Below are positions 22,726 through 27,073 of a stretch of 36,134 bases of DNA, piece by piece. Source of the stretch: Sneathiellales bacterium (lineage in GTDB: Bacteria > Pseudomonadota > Alphaproteobacteria > JANQFL01). The translations under genes and the position numbers were made by a program. Numbering within the stretch: position 1 is the first letter of the stretch; every line of letters begins with the position of its first letter. A model generated the notes under the pieces. The model was not told the origin of the DNA. It did not search any database and was given only the letters and a program-made list of their open reading frames with translations. Location: contig JANQFL010000028.1 in NCBI GenBank assembly GCA_028277845.1, forward strand, positions 1 to 36,134, read 5' to 3'.

Positions 22726-23229
22726 TCAGGCGCGTCCGGCAAGGGACTTGCCGACGACCCGCTCGATCCCTTCCAGCATCTTGGCGCCGGTGGCGCCGCC
22801 ATCACCGTCGATACGATTTTGGATGACGGCGTGCAAGGCATCCACATGGATGGCGCACACTTCCAGATCGATCTTGGCCGGATCAACGGGGTGGCCGAGA
22901 TAGCGGCATAGGGCGCCGGCGATGTTCGTCACCAGAGGGTAGCCGAAGCTACCGCCCTGGCCGCGCATGTCATGGGCCGTGGTGTAGAGAGCCTCCAGGT
23001 AGACCGCGTTGTCGTCCGGCGAGGCCTGCGCGGCCCGCAAGGCATCGCGCAGTCTGACGAGATCCAGTTGCACCCAGGAAAGATAATCCTGCGCCAAGGC
23101 CTCGATCTCGGCTTCCGCCGCCGCCAGTCGGGCGGCGGCGATGCCGTCGCCGTCGCCGACTTTTTCTTTAAGGGTGTTGGGCAACTCGATGATTTCGTAT
23201 TCGCCCGACGGGTGTTTGGTCACCTTCAT
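22726..23229 (-). CDS. Histidine phosphotransfer (Hpt) domain protein
   Basis: Predicted phosphorelay intermediate, 167 residues. The C-terminal half contains TTAHDMRGQGGSFGYPLVTN with probable phospho-acceptor His86, followed by a helix NIAGALCRYLGH, the Hpt four-helix-bundle pattern. The N-terminal about 40 residues are polar and unassigned. It begins 16 bases after the response-regulator stop, so the pair is one operon and should interact. No histidine kinase is in the window, so the input is unknown. Confidence 0.75.
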   Translation of the reverse strand: MKVTKHPSGEYEIIELPNTLKEKVGDGDGIAAARLAAAEAEIEALAQDYLSWVQLDLVRLRDALRAAQASPDDNAVYLEALYTTAHDMRGQGGSFGYPLVTNIAGALCRYLGHPVDPAKIDLEVCAIHVDALHAVIQNRIDGDGGATGAKMLEGIERVVGKSLAGRA

Positions 23230-23245
23230 ATGCGCGCTCGGTCCG

Positions 23246-23800
23246 CTACCGGCTCTTCAACCGGGCGATCCTCTCCTCGGCCGATTCGATGTATGTATCC
23301 GCATCCTCGGACCGCCGGTCGCTGCCTTTGAACTCCCGCCGCTTGCCCCGGCGCCGGTCGGGCCCGAAGTATTTTCCGGAGCGGATGAACGGCCGCGGCC
23401 GCTCGATGACCTCCGCGATGCGCAGATAAACCGACCGCGCCGAAACCGGTTTGACAAGAAACTCCGTAACCCCGGCATCGCGCGCCTTGTGGATCAGATC
23501 GGGCTCACTGAAGCTGGTGACCATGATGATGGGCAGAAACGTGTTGGGGCTGTCGGGCGCGGTGCGCACCTTGCGCACGAACTGCAGGCCGTCGACCGAC
23601 GCCATGTGCCAGTCGCACAGCACGATGTCGGGCTTGAAATGCTTGAGCGCCTCATAGGCTTCCTCGGCATCCATGACGTCCTCCACGTCCTTGATACCTA
23701 GCGCGCTGAGAATGCGGCGGAACAACTGCAGCATGAATCTGTTGTCGTCGAGCAACAGGATCTTGAGGTGGCGGAGATTGTAATAACGTGGATTGTGCAT
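23246..23800 (-). CDS. CheY-like response regulator with basic C-terminal tail
   Basis: Receiver protein of 184 residues without a DNA-binding output domain. The receiver has the acidic pair Asp18-Asp19 in ILLLDDNRFML, phospho-acceptor Asp63 in IVLCDWHMASVDG, a switch residue in IIMVTSFSE and the conserved Lys in EFLVKPVSARS. After residue 135 comes a tail with FGPDRRRGKRREFKGSDRR, a motif often seen at the end of alphaproteobacterial receivers of this type. It is co-transcribed with the Hpt gene. Role unknown; signal relay to motility or development is possible but unsupported. Confidence 0.85.
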   Translation of the reverse strand: MHNPRYYNLRHLKILLLDDNRFMLQLFRRILSALGIKDVEDVMDAEEAYEALKHFKPDIVLCDWHMASVDGLQFVRKVRTAPDSPNTFLPIIMVTSFSEPDLIHKARDAGVTEFLVKPVSARSVYLRIAEVIERPRPFIRSGKYFGPDRRRGKRREFKGSDRRSEDADTYIESAEERIARLKSR

Positions 23801-24231
23801 TTTAGGCGTGCCGGTGGTATCGCTCGGGTTTCAGGTCTTGCCGGCAGACGGTTTCGGCAAACTTTTTCCGATATCGCCTATCCTCTACGGAATGTCGTCC
23901 GTTGCCGACTCAGTCCGCACATCCGAGGGCGTGTCCGACGTGCGGTCTGCCGTATCAATCCTCCAAATACATCCCCGCGCGCTGGCCGAAGCCGCCGTGG
24001 CGGCTGCCGGACCACGGTCCGGATGGCCGTCAATCCCTCCGTGGCGGATTTTCCGGGATTATCGTTAACGCGGTGTAAAGGCGTCCCCGAAGACACTCCG
24101 CGAACGCACTGCCCGGAGATTGCCCAGTTTTTTCATGCGATACGGTACACTTTGGTCCCGTTTCGTACCGTTTCGGCCACTGTGTCGCGCCATCCGACAC
24201 GCGGTAACCTATTGAATTTTAAGAAATAAAA
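23801..24231. other. Intergenic region rich in inverted repeats; no gene seen
   Basis: No convincing coding frame. Perfect inverted repeats: CCGCAC/GTGCGG (23915-23920, 23940-23945), AGCCGCC/GGCGGCT (23990-23996, 23999-24005), CCGGACC/GGTCCGG (24007-24013, 24016-24022), AATCCC/GGGATT (24032-24037, 24055-24060). A fifth, ACGGTAC/GTACCGT, lies at 24142-24148 and 24165-24171. Strand and role are unknown; a structured RNA or cluster of operators is possible. Confidence 0.4.
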
Positions 24232-24306
24232 TGGTGGGCGCGGCTGGGATTGAACCAGCGACCCCTACGATGTCAACGTAGTGCTCTCCCGCTGAGCTAC
24301 GCGCCC
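24232..24306 (-). tRNA. tRNA-Val (anticodon GAC)
   Basis: Read on the minus strand, a full 75-nt cloverleaf. The acceptor stem GGGCGCG pairs with CGCGCCC, followed by discriminator A and an encoded CCA. D arm GCTCAGCGGGAGAGC, anticodon stem CTACG/CGTAG around loop TTGACAT (anticodon GAC, valine), and T arm with GGTTCAATCCC are all visible. It lies downstream of cpdR on the same strand, 80 bases apart. Confidence 0.97.
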
Positions 24307-24386
24307 GGACGCGGCCATGCGCGCGCGGCGCGGCCGACCTTCAGTCCTATATCGGGATTGCCGGGGCGAGGCAAGGAGCGCCCGCC

Positions 24387-24776
24387 TCAGGCCTCGAGCA
24401 GCCGCTCGACCTCCTGCACCAGGTCCCTCAGGTGGAAGGGCTTGGAGAGCACCTTGGCGTCCTTGGGGGCCTGGTTGTCCGGATTCAGCGCGACGGCGGC
24501 GAAGCCGGTTATGAACATGATCTTCAGGTCCGGGTCCAGCTCGGCCGCGCGGCGGGCCAGCTCGATGCCGTCCATCTCCGGCATCACGATGTCCGTCAGC
24601 AGCAGCGTGAACGGCTCCTCCTTGAGACGCTCGAAGGCCTCGGCGCCGTTGCTGAAGGAGACCACGTCGTAGCCGGCCTTCTGCAGCGCCTTGACGAGGA
24701 ACCGGCGCATGTCCTCGTCGTCCTCGGCCAGGAGGATCCGGCAGATGCCGTCCTTTTGCAGCTCGTTCACCGCCAT
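24387..24776 (-). CDS. cpdR: Cell-cycle response regulator CpdR
   Basis: Single-domain receiver, 129 residues. In alphaproteobacteria CpdR in its unphosphorylated form directs the ClpXP protease to its targets and so controls cell-cycle progression. The sequence is strongly CpdR-like: RILLAEDDEDMRRFLVKALQ, the phospho-acceptor segment LLLTDIVMPEMDGIELARRA, FITGFAAVALNP and APKDAKVLSKPFHLRDLVQE. It is divergent from N-formylglutamate amidohydrolase, an arrangement common in this class. Its upstream partner phosphotransferases (CckA, ChpT) are not in the window. The best evidence that the window is alphaproteobacterial comes from this gene. Confidence 0.93.
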   Translation of the reverse strand: MAVNELQKDGICRILLAEDDEDMRRFLVKALQKAGYDVVSFSNGAEAFERLKEEPFTLLLTDIVMPEMDGIELARRAAELDPDLKIMFITGFAAVALNPDNQAPKDAKVLSKPFHLRDLVQEVERLLEA

Positions 24777-25048: not shown

Positions 25049-25951
25049 ATGACTGCGAGGGAAGCCGCGAGCATCGACGCTGAGCTGACGCCGCCGTTCA
25101 CCATCGTGCACCCGACGCGCCTCGCCGCGCCGTTCGTGTTCAACTCGCCGCACAGCGGCAGGATCTACCCCAAATCGTTCCTGGAGGCGTCGCGGCTGGA
25201 TCCGGTCGCGCTCCGCAAGTCCGAGGACGTGTTCGTCGAGGAGCTGTTCGAGCCGGTTGTGGGTCTCGGCGCGCCGCTGATGCACGCCCACTTTCCGCGC
25301 GCCTACCTGGACGTCAATCGCGAGCCCTACGAGCTCGATCCGGCACTGATCTCCGACCGGCTGCCGCGCTACGCCAACACCCAGTCGGTCCGGGTCGTGG
25401 GCGGGCTCGGCACCATCGCCCGCGTGGTGACCGAGTCGGAGGAGATCTATCGCGTGCCGCTCACGCTCGACCAGGCGCTCGTCCGGATCAATCGCCTCTA
25501 CAAGCCCTACCACCAGGCCCTGGGCGGGCTGGTCGACCGGAGCCGGGAGCTGTTCGGGGTCTCCCTGCTGGTCGATTGCCATTCCATGCCGTCCAACCCG
25601 ACCAGCGAGCTCGCCGGTCCTCGCCCCGACTTCGTGCTCGGCGATCGCTTCGGGGCCTCGTGCGAACCGGAGCTGACGCGCTTCGTGGCCCAGCTGATCA
25701 AGGACATGGGCTATGTGGTGGCGCTCAACAAGCCTTATGCCGGCGGCTACATCACCGAGCATTACGGCCGTCCGAGCGAGGGACTGCACGCCCTGCAGAT
25801 CGAGGTGAACCGCGCCCTCTACCTGAACGAGGCCAGCTTCGAGAAGGGGCCGGAGTTCGCCGAGGTGCAGGCCGATCTCGAACGGCTGGTGCGGGACATG
25901 ATCGCCGCCGCCCCGGCCCTGCTGGAAGTGCCGCGCGCCGCCGCGGAGTGA
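25049..25951 (+). CDS. N-formylglutamate amidohydrolase family protein
   Basis: Metal-dependent hydrolase of the FGase family; characterised members deformylate N-formyl-L-glutamate at the end of one histidine-degradation route. It has 300 residues. Visible segments: FVFNSPHSGRIYP near residue 30 (family N-terminal signature with the SPHSG motif), FPRAYLDVNREPYELDP near 90, LVDCHSMPS near 175 and GLHALQIEVNRALYLNE near 250. No hut genes are adjacent, so the true substrate is open. It is divergent from cpdR and followed by a candidate small RNA on the other strand. Confidence 0.88.
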   Translation: MTAREAASIDAELTPPFTIVHPTRLAAPFVFNSPHSGRIYPKSFLEASRLDPVALRKSEDVFVEELFEPVVGLGAPLMHAHFPRAYLDVNREPYELDPALISDRLPRYANTQSVRVVGGLGTIARVVTESEEIYRVPLTLDQALVRINRLYKPYHQALGGLVDRSRELFGVSLLVDCHSMPSNPTSELAGPRPDFVLGDRFGASCEPELTRFVAQLIKDMGYVVALNKPYAGGYITEHYGRPSEGLHALQIEVNRALYLNEASFEKGPEFAEVQADLERLVRDMIAAAPALLEVPRAAAE

Positions 25952-25980
25952 TCGCGCCCGATGCCCATCGCCGCCGGCAG

Positions 25981-26080
25981 AAAGAAAAGGGGCCGTCCGA
26001 GGTTTCCGAACGGCCCAAGTCTAGGGAGGAAACGCCCAAGGAGGGCAGCGGCACGACGACAGGCGTCGCCGATGCCGCGT
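25981..26080 (-). ncRNA. Candidate trans-acting small RNA, suhB (RF00519)-like
   Basis: On the minus strand a TTGAAA -35 (26110-26115), a 17-bp spacer and CATATT -10 (26087-26092) point to a start near 26080. The about 100-nt transcript folds into a GC-rich hairpin (26048-26078, arms GCGGCA/TGCCGC), a short hairpin with stem GCCC/GGGC and loop TCCTT (26034-26046), a single-stranded TTTCCTCCC segment, and a terminator stem GGGCCGT/ACGGCCC (25990-26016) followed by a T-rich tail. CCUCC-type anti-Shine-Dalgarno segments and a position beside a SuhB/HisN-type gene are features of alphaproteobacterial suhB/cuckoo-type RNAs. The family match is from memory, not a covariance search. Confidence 0.6.
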
Positions 26081-26260
26081 TGCAACAATATGTCATTGCG
26101 CCGCACAAATTTCAAGATCCCTGCATATTTGAATGTGACTTTTTCAAAAGGCGGCGTGATCTGCGGCCCGGCCGCTGTCGGGCGGCGCAAGACCCGGACG
26201 GGAACATGTCACTCATGTGACACCCCAACGGTATGAAAATCAGGGATAAATCGCCCACTG

Positions 26261-27073
26261 ATGACCGCTCTGCCACAACTCGAGAGTGACCTGTTCTCGC
26301 AATACTTGGCGTTCGCCCACCGTCTCGCCGACCTGTCGGGGAGCGCCATATTGCCCGTGTTCCGGAACACCGGAGCAATCGACGACAAGGCGGAACGCGG
26401 CGCGCTCGATCCGGTGACGGCTGCCGACCGGGCCGCCGAGGAGGTGATTCGCGCGGCCATCACAGAGGCCTGGCCGGAGCACGGCGTGCGCGGCGAGGAG
26501 TTCGGCAGCGTGTCGGCGGAGGCCGAGTTCTGCTGGGTGATCGACCCGATCGACGGCACCCGCGCCTTCATCATGGGACTGCCGGTATGGGGCACGCTGA
26601 TCGGGCTCACGCACCGGGGCGTGCCCCTGCTCGGCGTGATGAACCAGCCGTTCATCGGGGAGCGCTACTGGAGCGACCTCGACGGCGCCCGAGTGCGGGG
26701 TCCGGCCGGTGAGAGCCGGATCGCGACCCGGCCCTGCACGTCGCTGGCCGATGCGCTGCTCGCGGCCACCAGTCCGGACATGTTCGCGGCCGGCGTCGAG
26801 CAGGACCGGTTCGAGGCCCTGGTCAACCAGGTCCGACTGCGCCGGTTCGGCACCGACTGCTACGGCTTCTGCCAGTTGGCGGCGGGCCACATCGACCTGG
26901 TCGTCGAGGCCGGTCTGCATGCCTTCGACATCGCCCCGCTGATCCCGATCGTCGAGCGCGCCGGCGGCTGCGTCACCAGCTGGAGCGGCGGGCCGGCCGG
27001 TGAAGGCGGACGCGTGGTCGCGTCCGGCGACCCGCGCCTGCACGAGGCGGCGCTGGAGGTGCTCCAGGGCTGA
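26261..27073 (+). CDS. hisN: Histidinol-phosphatase, inositol monophosphatase family
   Basis: Mg-dependent phosphatase of the IMPase fold, probably removing phosphate from histidinol phosphate in histidine biosynthesis. It has 270 residues. Metal ligands are visible: Glu in VRGEEFGSV near residue 81, the WVIDPIDGTRAFIMG motif near 92-105, and the C-terminal AFDIAPLIPIVERAGG aspartate near 225. FITG-type variation (RAFIMGLPVWGTLI) is the pattern of HisN-type members rather than of inositol monophosphatase proper, but SuhB-like activity cannot be ruled out. The gene follows the candidate small RNA and converges with the alpha/beta hydrolase gene with only 9 bases between stops. Confidence 0.85.
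   Translation: MTALPQLESDLFSQYLAFAHRLADLSGSAILPVFRNTGAIDDKAERGALDPVTAADRAAEEVIRAAITEAWPEHGVRGEEFGSVSAEAEFCWVIDPIDGTRAFIMGLPVWGTLIGLTHRGVPLLGVMNQPFIGERYWSDLDGARVRGPAGESRIATRPCTSLADALLAATSPDMFAAGVEQDRFEALVNQVRLRRFGTDCYGFCQLAAGHIDLVVEAGLHAFDIAPLIPIVERAGGCVTSWSGGPAGEGGRVVASGDPRLHEAALEVLQG

Follow-up and report, generated by a model that had tools for sequence, protein, structure and literature searches.

Does the gap between the N-formylglutamate amidohydrolase gene and hisN in this Sneathiellales contig encode a small regulatory RNA and, if so, to which family does it belong and what may it control? The window considered here is the whole stretch of 36,134 nucleotides. The initial annotation placed a minus-strand RNA gene between the two protein genes, which is where it is found; the gap, given then as 310 bp, measures 309 bp (one gene ends at 25951 and the other starts at 26261). 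The flanking genes are:

25049..25951, plus strand: N-formylglutamate amidohydrolase gene (PF05013, 251.7 bits), the convergent neighbour
26261..27073, plus strand: hisN/SuhB-type inositol monophosphatase family gene (PF00459, 176.1 bits), the divergent neighbour

The identification of the latter as a SuhB/HisN-type phosphatase is borne out by its PF00459 score, and the arrangement is that of the original Agrobacterium description from 2005, in which the family was first reported as an RNA encoded opposite to a phosphatase gene of the suhB type (PMC1273637).

A search of 25970-26120 (minus strand) with RF00519, the Rfam model of the suhB, MmgR or alpha-r8 sRNA, had been proposed in the initial annotation and gave a decisive covariance match. 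The match at 26053-25976 (minus strand) scores 69.2 bits (E 1.9e-12 in cmscan) against a gathering score of 41 bits and is full length (model 1-77 of 77), so that the claimed suhB-type identity is upheld over the whole model.

25983..26080, minus strand: alpha-r8 / MmgR-type sRNA of about 98 nt with predicted ends (RF00519 match, fold z of -6.1, conservation from the -35 element to the T run)

Judged by its sequence, the locus is an intact member of the suhB/MmgR/alpha-r8 family known from many alphaproteobacteria, and the call is sound; RF00519 exceeds its cut-off in 135 of 289 alphaproteobacterial genomes. Taken as a whole, it is very likely to be a chromosomal gene for a trans-acting alpha-r8 sRNA of ~98 nt that would be repressed by PhaR and held by Hfq, and whose seed would block ribosome binding sites.

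The accompanying label of a cuckoo RNA is not supported. RNAs of the Cuckoo (CcsR) type are defined by two conserved hairpin loops that each bear CCUCC. At this locus hairpin 2 has a variable loop, and the CCUCC of the linker is the one invariant element of this kind. No family model named cuckoo occurs among the Rfam scans of the window, and no other Rfam family reaches its gathering score here. In a scan with E values up to 10, SorY (RF02651) scored 18.8 bits against a gathering score of 111, and PK-BYV (18.2 bits) and BSR0739 (13.3 bits) were far under their cut-offs.

A complete transcription unit on the minus strand had been described as TTGAAA-N17-CATATT, a start near 26080, three hairpins and a T-tailed terminator, and every one of these features is present. 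Those that bound the transcript are:

26110..26115, minus strand: -35 element TTGAAA; CTTG is invariant in the six A2 loci
26087..26092, minus strand: -10 element CATATT, 17 nt from the -35 element
25981..26016, minus strand: hairpin 3 and T-rich tail, a covarying intrinsic terminator

TTGAAA-17-CATATT is the sole sigma-70-like site in 25900-26300 (0.1 in shuffles). Transcription would start near 26080, and a start at about 26078 obtained by homology with Sinorhizobium meliloti agrees with that given by the -10 element (about 26080). The terminator is the only one found (0.5 in shuffles) and has a stem of 11 pairs at 26016-25990 followed by CTTTTCTTTC, in which the T tail is interrupted. As is characteristic of the family, the gene has its own promoter and intrinsic terminator. 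In alignment A2, which covers the intergenic region of the window together with those of five hisN-relative loci that share its gene order, conservation runs from the -35 box to the terminator T run while the flanks are unconserved. Such bounded conservation speaks for a gene under selection and for a correct assignment of the promoter.

The RNA from 26080 to 25981 (100 nt) folds with a predicted energy of -52.3 kcal/mol (z = -6.1), and none of 200 shuffled sequences was as stable. Three hairpins are predicted, with the linker UUUCCUCCCU left open in the fold. The elements upstream of the terminator hairpin are:

26048..26078, minus strand: hairpin 1, mostly outside the Rfam model
26033..26047, minus strand: hairpin 2, UGCCC-UCCUU-GGGCG, with a loop that is not conserved
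26023..26032, minus strand: seed UUUCCUCCCU, the anti-Shine-Dalgarno 10-mer, with a mean unpaired probability of 0.97

Across 26 relatives, the whole named structure contains 26 double-change cells (6.7 +/- 3.0 in shuffled data). Pairing is possible in 92.7% of cells, versus at most 57% when the partners are slid. These figures lean towards the structure, since it was taken from one of the 26 loci and clear folds were part of the reason for choosing them. Hairpin 1 was missed by RNAalifold on a MAFFT alignment and was revealed by counting over the named structure, with double changes at four of its six basal pairs across the same relatives. The conserved, unpaired 10-mer typical of the family is UUUCCUCCCU at 26032-26023. 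All 26 sequences of alignment A1 share its TTTCCTCCC without change, although this invariance is partly a matter of selection since the A1 loci were gathered by that 10-mer; an exact copy of the 10-mer is present in 51 of the 59 loci that the covariance search fetched. Both the linker and the loop TCCTT of hairpin 2 had been put forward as exposed pairing stretches. The linker is conserved and unpaired as expected, but the loop varies freely in A1 (ACTTT, ATATC, TTTTT and TTCGT).

Seven hisN relatives were retrieved purely by protein similarity, and at six of them an RF00519 RNA occupies the equivalent position and strand, with two such RNAs at one of the six loci. A tRNA gene at 24235-24306 (minus strand) of the window is likewise matched by a tRNA at the corresponding position in six of the seven loci, so that the order tRNA, amidohydrolase, sRNA, hisN is conserved. 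Across alpha-r8 loci the amidohydrolase is the more widely conserved neighbour. It lies within 1.5 kb of the RNA in 34 of the 51 loci with the exact 10-mer and is on the 3' side and convergent in all 34. Elsewhere in the window, at 22726-24776 (minus strand), a row of genes encodes two response-regulator receiver proteins (PF00072) and one Hpt-like protein that falls just short of the Pfam cut-off, a possible phosphorelay with no kinase gene adjoining.

A second RF00519 copy occurs in the same genome at G000:C31:3570-3490 (L002:1501-1581, minus strand; 46.8 bits). It has its own terminator and a PhaR-type box equal to the full 21-mer consensus, and adjoins a second N-formylglutamate amidohydrolase that is 51% identical to the one in the window; the paralogous neighbour suggests that the amidohydrolase gene and the RNA were duplicated or acquired together. 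A further match at G000:C110:66862-66933 (L003:1501-1572, plus strand) is below the cut-off at 34.5 bits and is without the full 10-mer, and was not counted as a member. It carries GACGCCTCCCTGTTGAACT before a terminator and may be a relative that has diverged or a different sRNA of the CCUCC type. At L011, L031, L061, L065 (G032, G144, G225) and L008, two or three alpha-r8 genes stand in tandem, with a spacing of about 170-290 bp and a promoter and terminator for each gene.

Two other accounts of the locus are both very improbable. That the RNA might instead be a cis-acting leader or a cis-antisense regulator of hisN is an idea which its position on the other strand of the region upstream of hisN invites, as does the history of the family as a suhB-linked element (PMC1273637). 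The initial annotation had called the RNA antisense. Its orientation is indeed opposite to that of hisN, but it is not antisense to the hisN coding region since it starts about 180 bp upstream of the start codon and runs away from the gene. With a promoter and terminator on the minus strand, and with a hisN relative within 1.5 kb at only 2 of the 59 alpha-r8 loci, cis-regulation of hisN was rejected here, as it had been by the authors of the 2005 study (PMC1273637). There is equally little to favor a window copy that is decayed or silent and has left the C31 copy as the active sRNA. The interrupted T tail (CTTTTCTTTC) would fit such decay, and the C31 copy has the box and terminator described above; however, the window copy scores the higher of the two (69.2 versus 46.8 bits), retains its promoter, seed and terminator, and is positionally conserved across relatives.

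The question of what controls the gene leads to PhaR (AniA). In S. meliloti, the PhaR motif has the core YGCRNYGCR, and PhaR binds the mmgR promoter in gel shifts at a site that ends 13 nt before the start (PMC12542648). The window promoter contains two sequences of this type:

26091..26111, minus strand: PhaR/AniA-type box 1, AATTTGTGCGGCGCAATGACA, core TGCGGCGCA at 26105-26097, in the -35/-10 spacer
26070..26090, minus strand: PhaR/AniA-type box 2, TATTGTTGCAACGCGGCATCG, core TGCAACGCG at 26084-26076, over the start site

Both cores fit YGCRNYGCR exactly and each 21-mer is one mismatch from the full consensus. The boxes are 21 bp apart, and a pair spaced by 19-22 bp arises with P = 0.001 in shuffles of the window promoter. 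The pattern extends to other members of the family. Among 48 diverged alpha-r8 promoters, a core lies between -100 and -20 from the 10-mer in 34, compared with 4.6 +/- 2.0 in dinucleotide shuffles (about sevenfold enrichment), and a pair of cores 19-22 bp apart is present in 10, compared with 0.02. For mmgR, conservation of a motif at about -28 in the promoter has reportedly also been described. The genome encodes PhaR (C33:96-404, 155 bits) and the PHB synthase PhaC (C19:38736-39251, 269 bits), and PhaR is encoded in 50 of 54 genomes tested. Among genomes with an alpha-r8 match above the cut-off, only G024 (86% complete) gave no PhaR, and its match has no box (L018); this is a single case. 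Genome-wide, near-perfect PhaR palindromes (TGTGCRNYGCACA, one mismatch) occur at 29 sites versus 31 in a reversed control, so this search is uninformative on the PhaR regulon here.

Binding of PhaR at the window boxes is suggested by these observations. The same sRNA gene might instead carry TGC-N3-GCA boxes that are not PhaR operators, with another regulator acting at them or with box 2 being simply the 5' arm of hairpin 1, and this is unlikely but deserves more weight than either account above. Since box 2 overlaps that arm, its conservation has two possible causes. In addition, the four Caulobacter siblings SisA-D are reported to have no shared promoter motifs (PMC12559287), and published work places mmgR of S. 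meliloti under NtrC control as well. Against this, box 1 is outside the RNA and fits the gel-shift-confirmed mmgR motif at the corresponding distance from the start (PMC12542648), the enrichment of cores is seen across the family, and the regulator is encoded here and in nearly all genomes tested.

With PhaR as regulator, the RNA probably acts as a small regulatory RNA that blocks translation of nutrient-uptake genes under this carbon-storage regulator. A sigma-70-type promoter would make the RNA from near 26080 and PhaR on one or both boxes would repress it. As PHB granules accumulate PhaR would be titrated away and released from the sRNA promoter. Hfq would then hold the RNA while its seed pairs with ribosome binding sites of the GGGAGGAA type and translation is blocked, the chief targets being genes for nutrient uptake and for acyl-CoA or amide metabolism. 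What can be read from the DNA itself is family membership, a putative promoter and terminator, the predicted open UUUCCUCCCU seed, a conserved gene order, and genes for PhaR and for Hfq (114.6 bits). The pairing of the seed with ribosome binding sites, as proposed in the initial annotation, agrees with published work on the family, in which repression by the anti-Shine-Dalgarno 10-mer was demonstrated with the Hfq-bound alpha-r8 RNA SisA in Caulobacter (PMC12559287). For MmgR, published work on S. meliloti gives no direct target.

Targets were predicted by pattern searches of the genome. GGGAGGAA with an ATG 1-8 nt downstream was counted at 37 sites compared with 5 for the reversed pattern, an excess of which much is ordinary Shine-Dalgarno signal. 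Solute-binding proteins of ABC or TRAP transporters make up 11 of the 27 proteins behind such sites and none of 31 other genes from loci of the same genome (Fisher P 6e-5), which is a lead only because that background is small and unmatched for Shine-Dalgarno strength. The best single candidate is a TRAP-type DctP gene (L077; C115, 22.8 kb), with 15 contiguous predicted pairs at -28.5 kcal/mol. Other candidate targets are genes for an AMP-binding ligase (C81, 34.9 kb) and an amidase (C111, 5.4 kb). A canonical phasin was rejected as a target since no Phasin_2 was recognised in the genome with PF09361 or TIGR01985; the phasin may be divergent or fall in a gap of the draft genome. As a result, the output known from S. 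meliloti may not apply here.

Comparison with known systems places the gene closest to its family relatives. Like the suhB element of Agrobacterium tumefaciens (PMC1273637), it belongs to RF00519, lies opposite a suhB-type gene and has its own promoter and terminator, but it is single at its place with the second copy elsewhere in the genome. With MmgR of S. meliloti (SmelC689, alpha-r8; PMC7143759, PMC12542648) it shares the family, the seed, the three hairpins and a PhaR/AniA-type promoter site at the corresponding distance from the start. It differs in predicted length (98 nt versus 77 nt) and in having two PhaR-type boxes where one is reported for mmgR; furthermore, MmgR acts on PHB and phasin levels whereas this genome has no recognised Phasin_2. 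SisA-D of Caulobacter crescentus share the family and the 10-mer anti-Shine-Dalgarno seed and are Hfq-bound repressors of uptake genes (PMC12559287), for which the window sRNA has candidate counterparts among its predicted targets. In Caulobacter SisA-D are sponged by CrfA; no sponge of the window sRNA was identified.

Publications from 2005 onwards already describe the family and its seed, the placement opposite suhB, control by PhaR and the logic of the regulation; the direct targets of the family were mapped only recently, in Caulobacter. The find itself is an ordinary one. What is added is a new member together with the other copy in its genome, the observation that an amidohydrolase gene converges on the RNA at two thirds of loci, and a PhaR-box pattern that extends across the class, in part as box pairs, and is the part worth following. 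An intact MmgR-type gene is thereby placed in an alphaproteobacterium that has only its class in common with the closest genomes sampled. Somewhat short of an even chance is given to the idea that sensing of the PHB state through a PhaR operator, often a box pair 19-22 bp apart that spans the promoter, is an ancestral, class-wide input of alpha-r8 genes, which in this genome, without a recognised Phasin_2, would have repression of nutrient uptake as its output. If so, the state of carbon storage would directly set import in this lineage, and the circuit from PhaR through the alpha-r8 RNA to uptake genes is one that can be tested.

The exact complement of the seed, AGGGAGGAAA, occurs at 11 sites, of which two are the sRNA genes themselves and three lie right before a start codon. 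The complement is also contained in CCGGGGGAGTTCGAGGGAGGAAAGAACGCTACG, which is present twice on the same strand 1240 bp apart (G000:C71:41859 and 43099; L071, L072) and could be a repeat element or an RNA.
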